Notes under the pieces: model-generated
Seen by the model: only the letters and a program-made list of their open reading frames with translations
The model's database searches: none
What the model was told of the DNA's origin: nothing
Part shown: piece by piece, positions 1 to 9,793 of the stretch
Layout: every line of letters begins with the position of its first letter
How positions within the stretch are numbered: the first letter of the stretch is position 1
NCBI GenBank assembly: GCA_015060865.1
Contig: SUXS01000011.1
Location: 1-64,000 of the forward strand
Length of the DNA: 64,000 nucleotides
Origin: Bacteroidales bacterium
GTDB taxonomy: Bacteria > Bacteroidota > Bacteroidia > Bacteroidales > Bacteroidaceae
Direction: 5' to 3'
Made by a program: the position numbers and the translations under genes

Positions 1-331
1 ATCGATTGTAAAGTATTTATAGGATTAAAAAACTAACCAGTCAACCTAGTATAGGAATAAGACCAAATCGTGTAAACCTGTTATAGGGATTAACCTCTAA
101 ACTGACAACCTAAATCAGGAAACTACAAAAACACTAAATTATGTGTGCAATTTTTACACATGCACCAAAATCGGTACAAACATGCAATAGAATCAGTACA
201 TGCATGTACCGCGCAAAACGCAAGGCTCCGGCAAATTCATCAGAGCCTTTTGATAAAATTATCAGAGCCTTTCGTTAGAAAAAATCTCTTTGTCTGATTT
301 TCCCTATGTAGCTTTAAAGCACTTTACCCAG

Positions 332-476
332 ATAGGTTTTCCGGCTGTCCTTGTAGCGGACAATGTACTGATTATTAATTGATAAACAAGGACAACCCGA
401 GGGCAGCCCAGGTTGTCCTCGTTTGCTGATTGGTATACAGTGTGTTATGCCTTGCAAGGACAGCCGGACAACCTAT
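332..476. repeat. Nested inverted repeats
   Basis: The outer arms at 332-353 and 455-476 are inverted copies of about 22 nt with one mismatch (core CCGGCTGTCCTTG). Inside them a second hairpin pairs 385-397 with 411-423 (core AGGACAACC / GGTTGTCCT) around a 13-nt loop. The inner and outer arms share the word AAGGACA, so alternative pairings are possible. The function is unknown; an RNA structure, a binding site or the remnant of a small mobile element would all fit. Confidence 0.6.
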
Positions 477-863
477 TCCGCAACATCTGTTATATATGGA
501 CGTTTGGGGAGAAAATACTTTTTCGTCGTCGTTAACGTTATCGTACACGCTCCGCGTGTCCTGCTCTAAAACATTAAAAATAATTCACATTTCATAATCG
601 TAATTCAAAATTAAACCGTACATTTGCATATTCTCGCGCCGATACCTTAATTCATTTGTGTGGGTTAAGGTGGCAGGGCGGGGATGACATAATGGAAAAG
701 GCGTTTACTTGACGCTTTGGTTTGACGTCCTTAGAACTTCGCAACTTCTTTAAGATTTGTCAAAAACAAAGCAACGGTGAATGTCTCATGGGTATGTTTT
801 TGCACTCCTTTGTTATATTGGTCGTGATGATTGGTATAATGTAAGGTGCGTATATACATATCG

Positions 864-961
864 GCGTGAGGCTTCGCGTTGCTCGTTTCGACAAATCGGG
901 CAATGCGAAGGCCTTAAGGACGTGGAGCGAGCAACGAGTGACTGGCTTCACGCTTTTTTTT
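864..961 (+). terminator. Long hairpin with T-run before the lipoprotein operon
   Basis: GCGTGAGGC (864-872) pairs with GCTTCACGC (945-953), and inner arms GTTGCTCG (878-885) and CGAGCAAC (928-935) pair perfectly. A run of eight T follows at 954-961. This is the form of an intrinsic terminator on the plus strand, 60 nt before the first lipoprotein gene. It either ends an upstream small transcript or acts as an attenuator of the operon. Confidence 0.6.
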
Positions 962-1021
962 ATACTATAAACGGAACTATAGTTTGCCATTTGAGGCCAG
1001 TGGCACGTATAAACACATAGA

Positions 1022-1573
1022 ATGATTATGAAACGTATGAAAAGTTTCTTTCAGAAGAGCGGTCTTCTGATGATGGTCATGGGCATGGCATTCGTGTCAT
1101 GCAGTGAAGATGACAACAACGGAACAGAGATTCCGGGACAGGATGAGGGCAAGAAGCCTGCAGCTGTAGTCTTCGAGTACACCAACGTAGAGACTGCCGA
1201 CATTATCGAGTATTGCGACATCGTTGTGGAGTATAACGATGGCAGTGGCGTGAAGACCGAAACTGTCACTACCACCGAGTGGAAGAAGACCTTTACTACC
1301 AATCTCCCCTGCACCTACACCTTCAAGAAGACTGTGACACTGAAGGTCGACAAGGATATGGCTGCAGCCGAGAAGATTAGCTATATCAAGAACGGCCATA
1401 TCTACAAGTATACTATCGTGGATACTGATGGGAAAAGTGTGAACAAGACTGGCGGTTCCTCACATGTAGGTACGGCAACCTCGGCGGGCAGCAAAATTGC
1501 CGAAGGCATTACCAAAGGCAGCCTCAATATTGCCAATACATACACCTTCAATGCGGAGGGTAGTTTGAAGTAG
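1022..1573 (+). CDS. Small lipoprotein of unknown function
   Basis: This encodes a 183-residue predicted lipoprotein. The N-terminus has basic residues, a hydrophobic stretch and a lipobox-like AFVSC, followed by an acidic SEDDNN tract typical of surface-exposed Bacteroidetes lipoproteins. The rest is Thr- and Lys-rich and probably beta-structured; I recognise no domain. An alternative start at 1028 (MKRMKSFF) is equally plausible. It is the first gene of a five-gene plus-strand run ending at 7919, with a 35-nt gap to the next gene. Nothing in the sequence gives a biochemical role. Confidence 0.8.
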   Translation: MIMKRMKSFFQKSGLLMMVMGMAFVSCSEDDNNGTEIPGQDEGKKPAAVVFEYTNVETADIIEYCDIVVEYNDGSGVKTETVTTTEWKKTFTTNLPCTYTFKKTVTLKVDKDMAAAEKISYIKNGHIYKYTIVDTDGKSVNKTGGSSHVGTATSAGSKIAEGITKGSLNIANTYTFNAEGSLK

Positions 1574-1608
1574 ACATTCACAAAAATGATAATAGACAAT
1601 AAGAATCT

Positions 1609-3810
1609 ATGAAAAGAAATTTCAAATTAAATGCTTTCTTGATGGCATTGTTGAGTACATTGCTCTTTTCTTGCCAAGAAAGCTTGGATGATCAAGGGGA
1701 ATGGTATGTTCCCGGTGAGTATCATTACTCTTTGTGTGTCCCTAATGCGAACGATGAAATACAGGTTGTACTGGATAGTATAAGCTCTCCTATCAAGAGT
1801 ATCGGAGCCTGCCCTGATTGGGCATCGGTAACAGTGTCATCAAGCACACAAGGTAATCATCCAATTATATGTATTGCATTAAAGGATTGTGGACCAGGAG
1901 TGATGAACGAGGCTGATGTAGAGATATTCTCGGAAAAGAACGACAAAGTTTCATTGTCGCTTAAACAAAGCATCTATATCACCGATAATGAGAACTCCTC
2001 AGATGAGTTTCTTACAGATTGGGAAAACGTGAAGTATGTCAGCATCTATTCTGACCGTTCATACCAGTTGGTTCCTACCCCTTGGGCAGATGAGACGATT
2101 ACCACGTTGCCAGAGTATATACGCTATGACGTAAAGCAAAAGGATGGTTGGGAAATGGCTTTCTCGTTTTTGAATAGAGAAACATTTGATGATTGTAATT
2201 ATTTTGCCTTGTACAACCGCTACCTTGGTATACTACGTGTGTTTCTCTATGTGACGAACACTACGACAAATGGCTCGGAGTATTCTTTCGAGGTAGACAT
2301 GGGATCCATGCTGAAAAACAACAAGTACCCCTTCTACCATTCGTTGGCCTATGGTATTCCATCCAATCATCACTCGTTGCCCAACAATGTGAATCTTTTA
2401 GGTAATGGTATACCTTCACAGTTCACCTTCAAATCGTTCTTCTCACCCTATATTGCCATGTCCTCTACGGCTCTGAGCAAAGGATGGACAGCTTTCGATA
2501 TTGATGCATCGGCCTATTGTCCTAAAGGCAAGAATTGGCTTGAATCTGGTGAACAGATACAGATAGCTTGTCGTACGGAGTTGAGCCAATCAATATCATT
2601 GGCAGGAAGCCTATCGGCTAATATCTCAGGCAAATATTCTTCAGCAGAGCAGAGTGCGTCGGCAGCAAGCGGAGTGAGCAGTATGCTCTCTACTTTAGGT
2701 GCTCTTGCAGGTGATGTGCAAAATTCTGCATTAGCGGCTATAGAACAGCAAGTGACAGGAAATCCCTTGGATACCTATTTTTATTATGCTGGGGTTGCTT
2801 GTAATGTGGCAGCTTTTGCGTATGACTTTATCACTGAGAACCCGTACGAGGAGCATGTCATAGATTCTATGCCTGGCAAGATAGAAATGAGTATGACGGG
2901 GGATATAGAATTGTCGGGGTATATCAAAAGTCTCGCCTCTAATGGAATTTCTCCCATCACCCTAAAGGGGAGTACCATAAAGAGTGCTAATCCAAATTCA
3001 AACTTTGGCAAGGGGGTATGGGGAATCACAACAGATCCTGTAATCTATGTACTGAATGATTGTATGGTGGGCGATGCAAGTCATTTAAACTTGGTTGTTA
3101 ATGGTAACGGCACCTATGGCAACTCTGATGTTGAGGACTATCACCTGCGAATGGTATCATTTTTAGACCCTCAAAGTGTAGATGGCGTAGAAGGTGTGGT
3201 CATCAATAATGAGATATTTCCGGATGCATCGGATATAAAAGTAACATATAGCTATGGCGTATATCCAGATATACCCAAAGGTCATACAACAAAATATGCA
3301 TCTTTATTAGGTCTCTCTCGGCCAACGCTAAAAATAGTGGAGGGGACGGAAAAGTTTGTTTGGCGCTCCAAGAATGGAAATAATAAAATGAAGTATGTTG
3401 AGGTTCCTCATACACAAATCATGTCAAAAAAACTGGATGAGACTGAAGATAATTGTAAAGTCGTAAAGCAGGCTGGCGCCGACTACTCTTATTATGGAAA
3501 AGTGGTGAACTGCGAAGGGAAGAACTTTATTATGGAGCCACAGGTTTATCTTCCCATCAAAAAAACGAGTCAGGGCACAGTCCTGTGTGATGGTGAGATT
3601 CCCGATTTCGTAGTGTTGGTGAATTTGTCATTCAAGTCGAACGGACGCACTTTTGTGTTCAGCCAACGTTACTTGCCTGAGGTTAAAATGGTTAGTTGTA
3701 AAAGCACCAATTACTTAGAATACTTAGAGAATTGTTGCGAATTCATTGATTATCCTCGGGAAGATGCACAGAAGGCTCAGGATATACTTAAATATATATA
3801 TATTAAATAA
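1609..3810 (+). CDS. Large lipoprotein with BACON-like N-terminus
   Basis: This is a 733-residue predicted lipoprotein: a basic start (MKRNFK), a hydrophobic segment and lipobox LFSC. Residues about 55-125 look like a BACON-type beta-sandwich (a Trp, then an S/T-rich strand pattern ending in a repetitive L-x-L-K-Q strand), but this is a pattern impression. The middle (roughly residues 325-400) is Ala/Ser-rich and helical, with a short hydrophobic stretch near 393-405. The C-terminal third looks beta-rich. I cannot assign a family. It is separated from the next start by only 10 nt, so co-transcription is likely. It may be an outer-surface component of the same system as the binding proteins and protease downstream. 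Confidence 0.75.
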   Translation: MKRNFKLNAFLMALLSTLLFSCQESLDDQGEWYVPGEYHYSLCVPNANDEIQVVLDSISSPIKSIGACPDWASVTVSSSTQGNHPIICIALKDCGPGVMNEADVEIFSEKNDKVSLSLKQSIYITDNENSSDEFLTDWENVKYVSIYSDRSYQLVPTPWADETITTLPEYIRYDVKQKDGWEMAFSFLNRETFDDCNYFALYNRYLGILRVFLYVTNTTTNGSEYSFEVDMGSMLKNNKYPFYHSLAYGIPSNHHSLPNNVNLLGNGIPSQFTFKSFFSPYIAMSSTALSKGWTAFDIDASAYCPKGKNWLESGEQIQIACRTELSQSISLAGSLSANISGKYSSAEQSASAASGVSSMLSTLGALAGDVQNSALAAIEQQVTGNPLDTYFYYAGVACNVAAFAYDFITENPYEEHVIDSMPGKIEMSMTGDIELSGYIKSLASNGISPITLKGSTIKSANPNSNFGKGVWGITTDPVIYVLNDCMVGDASHLNLVVNGNGTYGNSDVEDYHLRMVSFLDPQSVDGVEGVVINNEIFPDASDIKVTYSYGVYPDIPKGHTTKYASLLGLSRPTLKIVEGTEKFVWRSKNGNNKMKYVEVPHTQIMSKKLDETEDNCKVVKQAGADYSYYGKVVNCEGKNFIMEPQVYLPIKKTSQGTVLCDGEIPDFVVLVNLSFKSNGRTFVFSQRYLPEVKMVSCKSTNYLEYLENCCEFIDYPREDAQKAQDILKYIYIK

Positions 3811-3820
3811 CTTAATCCGT

Positions 3821-4741
3821 ATGAAAACATTAAAATCTTATATAGTTATAGCAGTAGGTACACTTGCTATGATTGCATGTTCTCCTAACAATGAGGATAT
3901 TCCCGAGATTCCGCAGGAAGAACAGCCAGAACAAGGTGATGTAACCACCTATGATCAAGTAAAGTTTCTACAAAACAATATCGTAGAAGTTGACTCATTG
4001 GGCAATTTTGTACAACGTGTCAATGGTGCTCCACTAAACTCAGCCGACACTACCGAACTCTATATCGGCGTGGCCGACTTGTCTGATGCGGCTGCGATGT
4101 TTCAAGGCTGGTTGTCGCCCGATACAGAGGTGAACCTATCGGCTCCCTCTACCATAGATATGGAGGCCGGGCTGAAAGATGAGGAAGGTCAACTGCAAGA
4201 GACGGTCTATTTCAAGGTAGTAGACGAATCTCCTACATTGGCCGAAGTAACCTTTGCCAAAGGAACAGTGATGAAACATGTGTCTAAGATAATCTTTATC
4301 AAGGATTCTGCATGGCCAGAGAATGACGAATCTCCTTATATGGTGGGAGATTTTGAGACCCGCGATACTTGGAATGAAGGAAAACATTGGTGGCTATGTA
4401 TTCGAGAGGCTAAGAAAGGAGTTTCTGGCATGATGATGTACATTAGCTATCATGCCTGGGAACCTGATATATTAGATGGGAGTAGTGTTTGGGCCTCACC
4501 AGGACTGGCAAAGGAAGCCTCTGAAATACTAAGAGGAAATTGGGATTCTTATGTGGCATTTTTTAAAGAAGCAGACCGCACATTAGATAGTAGTTTCTAT
4601 TGGATAAACGATTATACTTATAGCGTTTTTGTCTTCAATCAATATGCCATCAAGTTGTCTAGTGGAGAGATTGATTGGTTTGATTGTCTTTACCGTAGTC
4701 CTCGCAAACATTTTATTCAGTTAAGAACCTTTGGACTTTAA
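3821..4741 (+). CDS. Lipoprotein of unknown function
   Basis: A 306-residue predicted lipoprotein starting at MKTLKSY, with lipobox AMIAC and an acidic, Pro-rich spacer (residues about 21-45) that suggests surface display. The reading frame is open upstream to 3746, but that part overlaps the preceding gene. The 3821 start gives a proper signal peptide and lies 10 nt after the previous stop. The C-terminal half is rich in Trp and Tyr, as in ligand-binding or carbohydrate-binding folds. I do not recognise the family. It is part of the five-lipoprotein run. Confidence 0.75.
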   Translation: MKTLKSYIVIAVGTLAMIACSPNNEDIPEIPQEEQPEQGDVTTYDQVKFLQNNIVEVDSLGNFVQRVNGAPLNSADTTELYIGVADLSDAAAMFQGWLSPDTEVNLSAPSTIDMEAGLKDEEGQLQETVYFKVVDESPTLAEVTFAKGTVMKHVSKIIFIKDSAWPENDESPYMVGDFETRDTWNEGKHWWLCIREAKKGVSGMMMYISYHAWEPDILDGSSVWASPGLAKEASEILRGNWDSYVAFFKEADRTLDSSFYWINDYTYSVFVFNQYAIKLSSGEIDWFDCLYRSPRKHFIQLRTFGL

Positions 4742-4771
4742 TAAAGGGTGATGTTTATTAACCCTCTAATA

Positions 4772-5791
4772 ATGAAATGTTTCAATGTCTTTAGACTATG
4801 TGTATCCGTGTGTGCCCTATGGGCATGCACGGATATTGAACATATAGACACACCATCGCCTGGGCAGAAGGTTTGTGTCCTCTTTGCACCGAATGGTTTG
4901 GGTGACAATGGATATAATGACCAGATACTTCGGGGAGTGGTGCAATTTGCCAATAATGACGAGTTTGCCAATGTAGAGGTGGATTACTATAACCCGATGT
5001 CATTGAACGACGGTGTGCGCATCATTGATGAATGGTGCGATACGACCCTTGAAGAAAAGAATAGTCTGCTGGTGTTGGCCAGTGCAATCTATAAAGATTC
5101 CCTCACGAGCCGATTGCAGAGAAAGCCTTTGGATACCTCATGCCGACAGGTGCTGATGTTCGAAACGGATGAGGTGAATCTACCGAGTGTAACGACCTTC
5201 AATATGTCGATGTATGGTGTGGCCTATATGGCTGGTGCTGTAGCCAACGAAATGCGCTCAAAACCTCTGATAGCATTGGCCAATCGGGAGGATGAGGTGA
5301 TGACCGTCGTTGCCGATGGATTTAAGGCTGGATTCAATGCCTATAACGATGAGAAAAGAGCGGTGGATGCCGTCTACTTGTCTGATGCAGGAGATGGATA
5401 TGCCATGGCCGACTCGGTGTATCGATTGATGCATGACTGGAGTATGCACTATAGTTTTATATTTCCAGTGATGGGTGGCTCCAACATGGGGGTATTCAGG
5501 TATTTGCGTGAATATCCTCATGGGGTCTCTACGGTGGGGACGGATGTAGACCAGAGTCATCTTTGTAACCCCATGGTGGGCTGTATGGTAAAACATATTG
5601 GTTGGGTGGTAGAGGAGTATCTGGAGAGGTGGACGGCGGGCGAAGAACTGCCCAAACACGTATTGTATGGCTTGGAGAGTGGCTATGTGGATTGGGTGCC
5701 ATCGTACAATTTTGAAGGAGTGTTTGATGAAACACTGATACGTGCGAGAATGGAAGCCATAGAAAAAGAACGAAACTATGGGATGGAATAA
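4772..5791 (+). CDS. BMP/PnrA-like substrate-binding lipoprotein
   Basis: This encodes a predicted lipoprotein of 339 residues (lipobox ALWAC) that resembles the basic membrane protein (BMP, PnrA) class of type-1 periplasmic-binding proteins. Family-like features include the early GLGDNGYNDQ segment, the DAGDGYAMADSVYRL segment and a late VGTDVDQS motif (compare the GxDxDQ of BMP proteins). In that family such proteins bind purine nucleosides or similar ligands, but no permease or ATPase is encoded nearby, so it may sense rather than import. Earlier starts at 4748 (GTG) and 4751 exist; 4772 gives the best signal peptide. Its last 14 nt overlap the start of the next gene, which implies coupled translation. 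Confidence 0.75.
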   Translation: MKCFNVFRLCVSVCALWACTDIEHIDTPSPGQKVCVLFAPNGLGDNGYNDQILRGVVQFANNDEFANVEVDYYNPMSLNDGVRIIDEWCDTTLEEKNSLLVLASAIYKDSLTSRLQRKPLDTSCRQVLMFETDEVNLPSVTTFNMSMYGVAYMAGAVANEMRSKPLIALANREDEVMTVVADGFKAGFNAYNDEKRAVDAVYLSDAGDGYAMADSVYRLMHDWSMHYSFIFPVMGGSNMGVFRYLREYPHGVSTVGTDVDQSHLCNPMVGCMVKHIGWVVEEYLERWTAGEELPKHVLYGLESGYVDWVPSYNFEGVFDETLIRARMEAIEKERNYGME

Positions 5792-7919
5792 AAGCATATT
5801 CGTATGGGTGATGTCGCTGGTGTTGTGCGTATCGTGCAACAAGGAGCAGGGGATATTGCCCGAAGATACCATGCAATGGGAAACACGCAAGGTGGCTGTA
5901 GTATTGCCCATGCAGAATGGACTTGACAAACATTGGAGGCGCACGTTGAACCAATGTGCCGAAGACTTGAAGCAGGCCTTTGCCATGCAGCAGAGAGGTA
6001 TAGCCTTGGAATATGAATGGTATGACGAGGATAGTGAGGACTTGGAGCAACTGGCCGATGAACTATCGAAGCGTAAGGAGGTGGTGGGCGTAATAGGTGG
6101 GTATCATTCGGATAATGCCAAGAAGTTGGCTTCGAGATTCTGCCGTTCACAGGTAAAAAAGACTTTCTTTACCTTGGCTACAACCGAAGAATTGGTACGT
6201 GGCTTCTCCTCGGCTGGCTGTTTGTGGGCAATGACGGAGACGGACATCGCCCAGTGTGAAGTTTTGTTGGCAAAAGCATATGCTTATGGAGCAAAAAGCG
6301 TAGGCTTGATTGCCGATGGAAGTTCCTTGTATGGGAAAACCTTCGTGGATTGGTTTGCCTTTCAAGCTAAGGAGATGGGGATGGAAGTAACAGGTATCTA
6401 TGATTATGCGCATAGCAGTGTGGATAAGGAAGCTGCGAAAGCTGCGGCATCAGGAACCAATTTCTTGATCTGTGCACCCAATGATATTGAAGGTATTCGC
6501 AAGATACAGGAAGCCATGCATAGACAAGCAGCGGGAGGTCTTCCCATACCAAGATGTCTATACTCTGATATCGCCTATGGTGCCGATGTTGTCAAGCTAT
6601 TGGGGGCATCGGCTAATGGACTGGAAGGTGTATGCGTAGGGGCTGATCCTGAGAGCGGATTTGATGTCTGTTACGAAACAACTTATGGAGAGCAGGCTAC
6701 CAACGGGGAGGCACAAGTGTATGATGCTGCAATGATGGTAGGCTATGGATGTTATCTGCAACTGCTACATGAGCATTTATATGATAAACAATTGGCACTT
6801 GACGAAGCACTCAAGATATTAGTTGACGGACGTGGTGATTATCAGCATACATGGTCGACAAAGGGTATGAGCGATTTTATTACGGAACTGACACAAGGGA
6901 AGACACCTGACCTAAGAGGTGTTTCTGGCACTTTGGATTTTGACAAGAAAGTATATACTAATATTTTGAATAGCATATATCATCATTATATGGTATATGA
7001 TGGGCAATACATTATATTGGATTATAATGCGAGTAACAGTTCGGAACGAACCAGTGAGACCTTAGCTGGATGGAATTGGAAAAACGACCGAATGCAAGAA
7101 TTGGAAGAATGTACTTCAACTGATTATACCTATCCTGCGCTGCATGAGAGGTGGGCACTTTTAGTGGCAAGTTCTTCTGGATGGAACAATTATCGCCATC
7201 AGGCAGATGTGTACTATATGTACCAGTTGTTGCGTGGCTATGGATATGAGGATGACCATATAGTCCTTATTGCAGAAGATGACATTGCCTATAACAAGAA
7301 CAATCCGAATCAAGGAATGGTAAATATCCATCTCGGTGGATCAAATGTATATGAAGACTTGACTATAGATTATCATCCCTCAGAGTTGGTGCCCGAGGAT
7401 GTAAAGTCTATCTTGTGTGGAGAAGAGAGCGAACGATTGCCTCATGTGATTTCGGCTGATGAGGATGATAATGTCTTCTTCTTTTGGAGCGGACACGGTA
7501 TTCCTGAACACCTGATGTGGCTGAACAATAGAAGGGGGCTTTCGAGAGAACTAGCCCAAGAGATATTTGCATCCATGCACGAAAAGAAATGCTACAGAAA
7601 ACTATTGTGCCTGATAGAAACATGCTATAGTGGTAGCGTGTTTGATGCTGTAGAGGGATTGCCTGGCATACTCGCTATTACTGCAGCTAATGCCAATGAA
7701 ACATCTAAAGCCGATGTGTATAATTGTGATTTAGAGGTTTGGATGTCAAACCGTTTTACACTGACGTTTCAGGATTGCATAGTAAAGAATCCATCCATTA
7801 CTATGCGCGAGCTATATTACCGCTTATTCAATAACACCGTAGGATCGCACGTCACGGTATTCAACGAAGAGAACTACGGCAATATGTACACCAATACGAT
7901 GCGCGAATTCTTAGAATAA
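5778..7919 (+). CDS. Periplasmic-binding domain fused to legumain-like C13 protease
   Basis: A 713-residue predicted lipoprotein (lipobox CVSC) with two parts. Residues about 35-430 look like a type-1 periplasmic-binding (LivJ-like receptor) domain, with the recognisable segments VAVVLPMQNG, VVGVIGGYHS and SVGLIADGSSLYGK. Residues about 457-713 closely resemble eukaryotic legumain (family C13): a WALLVASSSGWNNYRHQAD start, a DDIAY segment, a WSGHG motif with the predicted catalytic His573, and an ETCYSGS motif with the predicted nucleophile Cys616, then an ITAANANE stretch matching legumain's TTAANP. Both catalytic residues are present, so activity is plausible. In legumain the specificity is for Asn or Asp; whether this holds here is unknown. 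The gene overlaps the BMP-like gene by 14 nt. The architecture suggests ligand-controlled proteolysis at the cell envelope (inference). Confidence 0.85.
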   Translation: MGWNKSIFVWVMSLVLCVSCNKEQGILPEDTMQWETRKVAVVLPMQNGLDKHWRRTLNQCAEDLKQAFAMQQRGIALEYEWYDEDSEDLEQLADELSKRKEVVGVIGGYHSDNAKKLASRFCRSQVKKTFFTLATTEELVRGFSSAGCLWAMTETDIAQCEVLLAKAYAYGAKSVGLIADGSSLYGKTFVDWFAFQAKEMGMEVTGIYDYAHSSVDKEAAKAAASGTNFLICAPNDIEGIRKIQEAMHRQAAGGLPIPRCLYSDIAYGADVVKLLGASANGLEGVCVGADPESGFDVCYETTYGEQATNGEAQVYDAAMMVGYGCYLQLLHEHLYDKQLALDEALKILVDGRGDYQHTWSTKGMSDFITELTQGKTPDLRGVSGTLDFDKKVYTNILNSIYHHYMVYDGQYIILDYNASNSSERTSETLAGWNWKNDRMQELEECTSTDYTYPALHERWALLVASSSGWNNYRHQADVYYMYQLLRGYGYEDDHIVLIAEDDIAYNKNNPNQGMVNIHLGGSNVYEDLTIDYHPSELVPEDVKSILCGEESERLPHVISADEDDNVFFFWSGHGIPEHLMWLNNRRGLSRELAQEIFASMHEKKCYRKLLCLIETCYSGSVFDAVEGLPGILAITAANANETSKADVYNCDLEVWMSNRFTLTFQDCIVKNPSITMRELYYRLFNNTVGSHVTVFNEENYGNMYTNTMREFLE

Positions 7920-7941
7920 GCCATCCGTTGTGCATAAAGAT

Positions 7942-7997
7942 ACTCTATAAGGTCTCAGAAGAATAGGCGTAGACGTACTGAGGAGGTCTTATAGAGT
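7942..7997 (+). terminator. Hairpin after the lipoprotein operon
   Basis: ACTCTATAAG (7942-7951) pairs with CTTATAGAGT (7988-7997), and inner arms CTCAG (7954-7958) and CTGAG (7978-7982) pair as well. It lies 22 nt after the protease stop codon. There is no clean T-run, so it may be a weak terminator or an mRNA-stabilising hairpin. Confidence 0.45.
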
Positions 7998-8403
7998 TGT
8001 CTTGTTCGCAAAAAGTCCCTATAGTATATTGTCCTGTCCTTGTCCTCTTTCCGCCCAATCCCCAAGCCAGCCAAAAAGAACGCAGCCATGAACGATTAGG
8101 AAAAAGCAAGGCGTCAGCAAGAAATAGGGAACGGATGACAATCTGCCACGAGAGCAGAGAAGTCTATACTTCCGATTTCAACACCGCGTAAGCAAACTGC
8201 AGGGTTTGCCTTACAATCTGCTACAAGATTTTTGTACAGGATTTATGTTTGTTTCGTTCGGCTTAGCTCCGCTTTCTTCCTCTTCGCTCGGTATAGCTCG
8301 TGCAAGCACGGCTCTACACTCACTCATTCGTCAGTTGCACTATCTTTAGTGCTTGCTACGCAGGCCCAGAAATTAGGCTGCGCCTCAGAAATATTCAAAT
8401 AAA
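7998..8403. other. Non-coding gap before potD-like gene
   Basis: I see no convincing gene here. Short open frames lack homology and start signals. The stretch around 8245-8360 has the TTCGCTCGGTATAGCTC-like low-information sequence often seen between genes in this genome (compare 42640-42780). An imperfect palindrome around GTGCAAGCAC lies near 8310. Confidence 0.5.
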
Positions 8404-8435
8404 TTTGATATTTCGTTCGGCTTGCACTAATTTTG
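8404..8435 (+). promoter_or_regulatory. Bacteroidetes promoter for potD-like gene
   Basis: TTTG (8404-8407), a 20-nt spacer and TAATTTTG (8428-8435) match the Bacteroidetes -33/-7 consensus. The extended box CTTGCACTAATTTTG is identical to that of mutS2. Confidence 0.75.
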
Positions 8436-8464
8436 TCGCTCTAAATTAAAAGAAAAGTAAAACA

Positions 8465-9793
8465 ATGAAGAAATTCCTGAATCTTAGCCTGCTTGTGGCA
8501 GTGCTGTTCGGGGTACTCCCGACAAACTATTCGTATGCTGCTGACCGCGAGCACACACTGAAGGTGTACAACTGGGCCGACTACATCGACGAGGCTCTGC
8601 TTGATGAGTTTGAGGTATGGTACAAAGAGCAGACCGGCGAGGAGGTAGAGGTTATCTACCAACTTTTCGATATCAATGAGGTGATGCTGGCCAAGCTCGA
8701 GAAGGGTCACGAGGACTTCGACGTGGTGTGCCCCTCAGAGTATATCATCGACCGTATGCTGGCCAATGACATGCTGCTCCCCATTCCCCGCGACTTTGGC
8801 AGCACGCCCGACTACATCAGTTTGGTGTCTCCTTATGTCATTGACCAGTTTGCACGTATGGATAAAGAAGGCAAGCCTGCCAACGACTATGCCGTAGGCT
8901 ATATGTGGGGTACCACAGGTATCCTGTACAACCCCGAGTTCGTGACCGACGAAGAGGTGGACACCTGGGGTATCATCTGGGACGACCGCTTCCAGGGCAA
9001 GATTCTCATGAAAGATGCTTATCGCGACATCTATGGTCCTATGCTCATGTATGCCCGCTATCAGGATATTCTGGATGGCAAGGTAACACGCGAGCAGCTG
9101 ATGAACGACTCGTCTGACGAGGCTATCGCCACCGTGGAGAACCTGCTCAAGGAGGCCAAGAAGAACATCGCCGGATGGGAGGTGGACTTCGGCAAGGAGA
9201 TGATGACCAAAGGTAAGGTGTATATGAACGTGAGCTGGAGCGGCGATGCCGTATGGGCTATCGACGAGGCGGCAGCCATAGGCATGACGCTGAAGTACCA
9301 CGTGCCCCGTGAAGGCTCCAACGTATGGTTCGACGGATGGGTAATCCCCAAATATGCTGTCAATACCAAGGCGGCCTCGTACTTTATCAACTTCATGTGT
9401 ATGCCCGAGAATGCACTGCGCAACATGGACGAGATTGGCTACGTGAGCGTCATCGCTTCGCCCGAAATACTGGAAGCCAAGATTGACTCATCACTGAACG
9501 AATACATCGACCTCACCTACTTCTTCGGCGAGGAGGCCGACAGTGTACCCGTCAACAGTATCCAGTACCCTGACCAGAGCGTCATCGACCGTGCAGCACT
9601 GATGCGCGACTGCGGCAGCCGCACCAAGAACATGCTGGAGATGTGGAGCCGCGTAAAGGGCGACAACCTGGAGTCGTGGGTCATCATCCTCATCGTCGTA
9701 GTACTCGGTGCAGCCATTGCCTGGGGAGTATACAGCAAGGTGCAAGCCAATAAGCGAAGCCAGAAGCGAAAAAAGAAAAGCCAACGCAGATAA
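8465..9793 (+). CDS. potD: PotD-like polyamine-binding protein with C-terminal anchor
   Basis: A 442-residue extracellular solute-binding protein of the spermidine/putrescine (PotD) family. Visible features are an N-terminal signal peptide ending near YSYA, the family-typical opening VYNWADYIDE, the DVVCPSEY segment and a YMWGTTGI segment. In the family this protein delivers polyamines to the PotABC importer. Two oddities stand out. No potA, potB or potC lies in this window. The protein also ends in a predicted transmembrane helix (about residues 405-424) followed by a very basic 18-residue tail, so it is probably anchored in the inner membrane rather than free or lipidated. It has its own promoter and a strong terminator, so it is a single-gene unit. 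Confidence 0.85.
   Translation: MKKFLNLSLLVAVLFGVLPTNYSYAADREHTLKVYNWADYIDEALLDEFEVWYKEQTGEEVEVIYQLFDINEVMLAKLEKGHEDFDVVCPSEYIIDRMLANDMLLPIPRDFGSTPDYISLVSPYVIDQFARMDKEGKPANDYAVGYMWGTTGILYNPEFVTDEEVDTWGIIWDDRFQGKILMKDAYRDIYGPMLMYARYQDILDGKVTREQLMNDSSDEAIATVENLLKEAKKNIAGWEVDFGKEMMTKGKVYMNVSWSGDAVWAIDEAAAIGMTLKYHVPREGSNVWFDGWVIPKYAVNTKAASYFINFMCMPENALRNMDEIGYVSVIASPEILEAKIDSSLNEYIDLTYFFGEEADSVPVNSIQYPDQSVIDRAALMRDCGSRTKNMLEMWSRVKGDNLESWVIILIVVVLGAAIAWGVYSKVQANKRSQKRKKKSQRR

Follow-up and report, generated by a model that had tools for sequence, protein, structure and literature searches.

A legumain-type protease domain joined to a periplasmic-binding domain in lipoproteins of gut Bacteroidales, and its PnrA/Bmp-type partner

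Introduction

Cysteine proteases of families C11 and C13 belong to the same clan, CD, and legumain (asparaginyl endopeptidase, AEP), a C13 enzyme, carries a C-terminal prodomain after its catalytic domain. Here we describe a lipoprotein that fuses a C13 domain to a type-1 periplasmic-binding protein (PBP) half, together with the gene module around it, from a 64,000-nucleotide stretch of a Bacteroidales bacterium (the window; assembly GCA_015060865.1, contig SUXS01000011.1, positions 1 to 64,000). Lipoprotein cysteine proteases are already described from this bacterial order, namely the C11 enzymes fragipain and the doripains. Two types of toxin are activated by C11 lipoprotein proteases according to passages of two reports (PMC11169675, PMC9308784): CDCL toxins, on which DpnB acts at the target cell and not at the producer, and BcpT, which is activated in producing cells. 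As far as those passages go, the known toxin activators are C11 enzymes. The protein described here differs from them in its protease family, its fused receptor domain, its obligate Bmp partner and its position beside a presumed substrate, and the two kinds of protease coexist in all 19 fusion-carrying genomes of our family sample.

Three further systems bear on the neighbouring genes. The PnrA/TmpC/Bmp nucleoside-binding lipoproteins resemble the partner gene product by profile matches and by pocket residues that are largely kept; they differ in that the partner is tied to a protease, with no recurring transporter gene seen at its loci. AEP/legumain takes part in the maturation of perforin-2 in dendritic cells, according to part of one report (PMC7614779); there, as here, a MACPF protein meets a C13 protease, but that encounter belongs to a eukaryotic lysosome, whereas ours is one of gene linkage only. 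The antibacterial BSAP proteins are MACPF-domain lipoproteins of the same order, and the sections of their description drawn on here discuss C11 and do not mention C13 or legumain (PMC12853789); at our loci, tandem MACPF genes adjoin the fusion.

Results and discussion

A lipoprotein with a receptor half and a C13 half

The fusion is a 713-amino-acid (aa) protein encoded by an intact, ATG-initiated open reading frame (ORF) at 5778..7919; this and every other window feature given below lies on the plus strand. Its signal sequence (5778..5837) ends in a lipobox, VSC, by a simple rule, with Cys20 expected to be lipidated. The type-1 PBP half (Peripla_BP_6/ANF_receptor, about aa 38-440, 5889..7097) matches Peripla_BP_6 over aa 38-321 in Pfam (E 3.8e-11, 43.7 bits against a cut-off of 31.7), and the C13 domain (aa 458-704, 7149..7889) matches Peptidase_C13 (PF01650) over profile positions 1-251 of 258, near the whole catalytic domain (E 1e-50, 173.1 bits against 22.8). 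The C11 family (PF03415) had no match in the window fusion at E ≤ 1. Against the PDB, the C-terminal half matches human legumain chains best (E 1.3e-33), followed by plant asparaginyl endopeptidases/ligases and glycosylphosphatidylinositol (GPI) transamidase (2.6e-28). A preliminary description of this DNA, made from the letters alone, had read the gene as just this combination and proposed searching the halves separately, and both halves came out as it had expected, PBP1-type at the N-terminus and C13, with legumain first, at the C-terminus. Its wording that the C13 domain is strikingly close to legumain is apt for family membership and not for percent identity, which is 31% in the window and 25-35% over the 35 members found (see below).

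The protein ends at aa 713, 9 residues past the C13 match, so that there is no legumain-type C-terminal prodomain; the PBP half and the lipoprotein signal, both N-terminal, further set it apart from legumain. A profile of the PBP half from 30 of the 35 members has LivJ-type amino-acid-binding proteins as its closest solved relatives (3td9, E 1.2e-12), and Pfam, run on 30 members, finds ANF_receptor in 25 and Peripla_BP_6 in 23 (E ≤ 0.001). By the same simple rule a lipobox is present in 33 of the 35 fusions, 25 of these with at least two acidic residues just after the Cys. The products of neighbouring genes show a similar pattern, and all five products of the window module have a lipobox. Part of one report reads acidic residues in this position as pointing to surface export (PMC9308784), and the fusion protein may well be surface-exposed.

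Distribution of the fusion

The fusion occurs at 35 loci across several Bacteroidales families (the window, L002-L008, L039-L058 and L080-L086, with duplicates merged; L003 and L004 are contigs of genomes G120 and G148), and a single profile, made from these same proteins, spans both halves at all of them. These loci are not independent, since the L002 fusion is 99% identical to that of the window and L039/L040/L043 and L084/L085 are close kin. An assembly artefact or gene-calling error is ruled out by the recurrence of the fusion in many assemblies; the window's own assembly holds a single match, in a stop-free open frame of 718 codons.

Among 151 genomes of the same family (the family sample), PF01650 matched at 35 places in 30 genomes, and the fusion accounts for 23 of these places, spread over 19 genomes. 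Matches at the remaining 12 are weak (2.5e-18 to 2.4e-4), and seven lie in frames of at most 270 codons; at a threshold of 1e-3 the PBP half was not matched at any of the 11 that have loci. Nor did the profile over both halves match L087-L092, which comprise four weak family-sample places and two from the order sample. In the latter, nine of 393 genomes match C13 at 1e-10 and seven carry fusions, the window's own included, while 19 of 395 phylum-sample genomes match C13, all except the window's own at 2.3e-12 or worse; the weak phylum-sample matches (L059-L079) fall outside the 35-locus set. A scan of named contigs gave seven fusion loci, and five of these seven records come from sheep, roe deer or horse gut. 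Carriage on plasmids or phages was rejected for lack of any match in a plasmid collection (72,556 records) or a phage collection (50,697 records). Proteases of legumain type that carry a receptor domain are thus an established, if patchy, component of gut Bacteroidales. The preliminary description had called for such a genome count and knew of no bacterial protein of this architecture; we likewise found none described in a collection of openly licensed papers, which is weak evidence of absence, but the protein is not unique and belongs to a conserved Bacteroidales family.

Catalytic and pocket residues

The catalytic residues named in the preliminary description, His573 (7494-7496) and Cys616 (7623-7625), are present and align with legumain His148 and Cys189, and legumain Asn42, Arg44, His45 and Glu187 align with Asn471, Arg473 (7194-7196), His474 and Glu614 (7617-7619). 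We assume for these six legumain positions, and for Asp231, the roles generally given to them, with Arg44, Glu187 and Asp231 presumably forming the S1 pocket. Each of the two catalytic residues is retained by 34 of the 35 fusions; their loss in orthologs, which the same description had named as a finding that would speak against it, is confined to L082. The S1 Arg is invariant (35/35), and the Glu187 site holds Glu in 29 fusions and Asp in six. The fusion is real and conserved and, judged from its sequence, probably an active protease. The sole exception (L082:8344-10557) is a paralogue that has His→Asn and Cys→Ser and lacks the Bmp gene; the second copy in its genome (G792), L081, keeps both catalytic residues. 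L082 may represent a decoy, or a form that only senses.

At the legumain Asp231 site the window fusion has Asn658 (7749-7751), by alignment to human legumain, so that the S1 triad of legumain proper is incomplete. This unlike S1 wall residue, and the presence of GPI-transamidase and peptide asparaginyl ligase chains among the solved relatives, would suit an enzyme that cuts surface proteins and re-joins them to another molecule, as GPI transamidase and plant asparaginyl ligases do. We regard such a transamidase as very improbable, since legumain, at 1.3e-33, is a closer match among solved structures than GPI transamidase, at 2.6e-28.

Sequence varies more in the PBP half than in the C13 domain (mean pairwise identity 0.337 versus 0.442; lower for the PBP half in 581 of 595 pairs). 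Within the PBP half, Glu84, Arg141, Asp156 and Tyr185 are each invariant in all 35 fusions. The sites Ser111, Thr/Ser135 and Tyr185 we take to be those of a LivJ-type amino-acid pocket.

The PnrA/Bmp-type partner

Directly before the fusion lies a gene for a Bmp/PnrA-like lipoprotein (4772..5791; ORF listed from GTG at 4748, Met at 4772), whose stop overlaps the fusion start by 14 nucleotides. The product matches Bmp (PF02608) at E 4e-13 (49.5 bits against a cut-off of 24.1), and a profile of 28 of the 32 family members has TmpC/PnrA (2fqw, 2e-14) and Lbp (7x0r, 1.7e-17) among its PDB matches; the copies in L045 and L058 gave no Pfam match at E ≤ 0.1 and E ≤ 0.01, respectively. A homologue stands directly upstream on the same strand at 32 of the 35 loci and, by first start codon, overlaps the fusion in 30. 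In the family sample the partner profile (E 1e-5) has 21 matches in 18 genomes, every one at a fusion locus, and the partner is thus present in 18 of 19 fusion genomes (the exception being G068, locus L055) and in none of the 132 others. This profile was built from these same partners, yet its reach extends to distant PnrA proteins in the PDB, and ordinary Bmp proteins are therefore not expected to have escaped it. The Bmp/PnrA-type gene is an obligate partner of the fusion.

The two proteins also vary together. Identity matrices over the 32 loci correlate at r = 0.935 for PBP half and Bmp, 0.93 for PBP half and C13, and 0.90 for C13 and Bmp, with none of 2000 permutations as high, in a set of related and hence not independent loci. 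Nucleoside-binding residues of BmpA lie at the Phe27, Phe176, Asp225 and Lys242 sites, according to part of one report (PMC13325309). Placed by eye on the partner via TmpC and BmpD alignments, these sites hold an aromatic residue in 30 of 32 partners (Phe27) and 31 of 32 (Phe176), Asp in 30 (Asp225) and Lys or Arg in 27 (Lys242). The putative nucleoside pocket, an aromatic sandwich with ribose Asp/Lys, thus appears largely kept. We consider it likely that the fusion is an active surface protease working with Bmp.

The membership of both receptor folds in solute-binding families, together with the ruminant or horse gut origin of most named records, would also suit nutrient acquisition, in which dietary or host protein would be broken down by the protease at the cell surface and the amino acids and nucleosides set free would be captured by the two receptors for uptake. 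We think this improbable: no recurring transporter was seen among the neighbours of 28 clustered loci (the annotation of these neighbours being partial), no Bmp protein is seen apart from the protease in the family sample, and the linkage to MACPF and c4 genes described below would be left unexplained.

In three related genomes a DUF4421 protein is encoded directly before the Bmp gene: that of L043 has 398 aa (L043:5172-6368), and relatives occur in L039 and L040, the assignment having been made by Pfam on the L043 copy, with which the other two cluster.

MACPF and c4 neighbours and a possible surface pathway

In the window the partner is preceded by genes for three further lipoproteins. The first, small one (1022..1573) opens the module here and in L002-L004; its profile drifted to other lipoproteins on iteration and was not used as evidence. 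The second, c4 (1609..3810, 733 aa), has a BACON-like N-terminal part and no Pfam match at E ≤ 1, and sits where other loci have MACPF genes. The third, c3 (3821..4741; ORF listed from TTG at 3746, Met at 3821), likewise has no Pfam family at E ≤ 1. When the neighbours of 28 loci were clustered, the recurring ones were Bmp (24 loci), c3 (10) and c4 (7), all other clusters reaching at most five loci.

Seven of the 35 loci have three MACPF-family ORFs each upstream of the fusion (21 in total by our own profile, some of them truncated where the stretch ends), and some of these carry BACON-like domains. In 25 fusion genomes, a count set apart from the five known by named contigs (L002, L005-L008), Pfam MACPF occurs at 16 places in seven genomes, all 16 within 7.5 kb of the fusion C13 domain. 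The family sample holds 15 MACPF matches in 10 of 151 genomes, nine of them at the fusion (four genomes). Seven other loci, the window among them, carry c4, upstream of the fusion in six. A c4 search of the family sample matched 15 places in 14 of 151 genomes: all six matches above 1000 bits are at fusions, a seventh (G115, 533 bits) lies on a 3.4-kb contig beside a gene that looks c3-like by eye, and eight are partial (44-148 bits) and none of these is in a fusion genome. Pfam on six of the nine c4 matches outside fusion loci (five distant ones and G115) gave none over cut-off, the only listed hit having E 0.052, and the c4 profile had two PDB hits, at E 0.25 and 0.32. c3 follows c4 in 7/7 loci, lies among or after MACPF genes in 4/7, and is also present in L044. 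The c4 gene of L048 (G069:C3:86285-88513) has one in-frame stop.

These arrangements suggest how the module might work. The fusion would be a lipid-anchored C13 cysteine protease at the cell surface, in which the N-terminal amino-acid-type binding domain would serve as the regulatory part in place of the C-terminal prodomain of legumain, and it would act together with the co-encoded PnrA/Bmp-type, nucleoside-receptor-like lipoprotein. A ligand on one or both receptor domains would switch or position the protease, which would then cut co-encoded surface lipoproteins, MACPF proteins in one clade and c4 in others, including the window; cleavage would activate, release or control these proteins against competing bacteria. 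Ligand gating we put at a little under an even chance, and MACPF or c4 proteins as substrates seem to us rather unlikely. Taken as a whole, a surface receptor-protease pair that processes co-encoded lipoproteins is a tentative proposal, to which we give somewhat less than even weight.

Several observations weigh against it. Neither MACPF nor c4 appears at 21 of the 35 loci in the stretch fetched, some of which holds 1.5-2.5 kb upstream, so neither can be shown as a general substrate; c4 lies downstream, not upstream, of the fusion in L058; and six of the 15 family-sample MACPF matches are in genomes that have no fusion. That c4 is a hidden MACPF protein is unsupported, a comparison of the c4 and MACPF profiles aligning the signal and the BACON-like part only. 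The Bmp gene is absent at three of 35 loci (L055, L057, L082). The Asp231 site holds Asn in 24 fusions, Asp in 10 and Thr in one, so Asn specificity is not assured, and the LivJ-type pocket is only partly kept (Ser111 in 25/35, Thr/Ser135 in 34/35, Tyr185 in 35/35). C11 proteases are present in all 19 family-sample fusion genomes and could perform the same job. Two published results, each taken from part of its report, speak against obligatory cleavage and lower our estimate for MACPF and c4 as substrates and for the proposal as a whole: substitution of the supposed protease sites of the MACPF toxin BSAP-1 was reportedly without effect (PMC12853789), and the AEP/legumain cut of perforin-2 is not required for pores in vitro and is partly replaceable (PMC7614779). 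The idea that C13 stands in for a missing C11 was rejected, since 142 of 151 family genomes have C11, among them every one of the 19 fusion carriers.

Part of this evidence would fit a constitutive surface protease that trims surface lipoproteins generally, its PBP-fold half being a scaffold or dimerisation domain for Bmp with no gating. The many loci at which no common candidate substrate is seen (21/35) and the imperfect LivJ-type pocket are in keeping with it, and the strong co-variation of PBP half and Bmp (r = 0.935) is as expected of an interface. We hold it unlikely, though not negligibly so, in view of the largely kept nucleoside pocket of the partner and of the four residues that are invariant at 35/35 in the otherwise faster-evolving PBP half.

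If a receptor-protease pair does act on the neighbouring MACPF or c4 proteins, it would represent a receptor-controlled route for deploying surface effectors, by a C13 fusion unlike the C11 activators. An extended version, which we consider improbable, is a danger-sensing cascade, in which the nucleoside and amino-acid-type surface receptors would sense metabolites from lysed neighbours and switch on the legumain-like protease, which would mature or control the adjacent MACPF pores or c4 effectors. For experiment, the module supplies a directly testable pair of genes, nucleosides as a candidate class of ligand, and candidate substrates, all within single operons.

Exchange and movement of the module

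On a midpoint-rooted tree of the 35 fusions, in which the long branches of L055, L082, L081 and L054 make deep placements unsure, fusions from different host families group together with full support: L049 (family f1) with L080 (f161) at 100/100, and L050 (f1) with L086 (f110) at 100/100. The fusion has been exchanged between lineages. MACPF requires two changes on this tree, its loci forming a single clade that also contains one c4 member, and c4 at least four, which indicates that c4 has repeatedly joined or left modules.

The window and L002 were also compared at the DNA level. Their identity is 97-98% over 600-1500, falls to 63-76% over about 1500-4500 (c4 and c3) and climbs to 97-100% over 5100-7800 (the end of Bmp and the fusion); past the fusion stop it is 83% through a repeat to 8258, with little remaining beyond. 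Exchange or divergence has thus affected the c4-c3 part but not the sensor-protease. Were the danger-sensing cascade true, such cassette exchange would renew the effector and leave the sensor-protease unchanged. The flanking sequences of L002 recur at 95% and 91% identity on a different contig (C15) of the window's genome, so the module occupies different places. The preliminary description had overlooked this c4-c3 exchange and the missing C-terminal regulatory domain of legumain; the obligate Bmp partner and the MACPF/c4 neighbours, also absent from it, are new facts about the fusion.

Elements at the module ends

The right end of the window module is marked by a dispersed repeat of about 220 bp (8024..8258), with some 20 genome copies counting partial ones, 69-87% identical to the copy in L002. 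A simple promoter and terminator scan, which was not used as evidence, gave 34 promoter-like hits (19.7 in shuffles) and two terminator-like hits (5.3 in shuffles).

Upstream of the module lies a conserved, covarying RNA element (630..968), multi-copy in the genome, of about 330 nucleotides that folds mainly into a single long hairpin, with 115 pairs and 95.6% of cells paired. Both sides have changed in 29 pairs, a number reached in 0/500 shuffles and set against 4-8 in slid controls, with the structure derived from the same eight sequences as were used for this comparison. Rfam had no match in window positions 1-8600 at E ≤ 1. The element follows a TAnnTTTG-like motif, presumably a Bacteroidales promoter, and terminates in a T-run; it may be a structured leader or a small RNA that has yet to be described. 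It precedes several different operons and has matches in 49 of 101 family genomes. Copies lie upstream of the module in L002, L003 and L004, and others occur in L093, L094, L096 and L099; the operon led by the same hairpin in L094 encodes a 278-aa protein (L094:15555-16391) that by eye is caspase-like.

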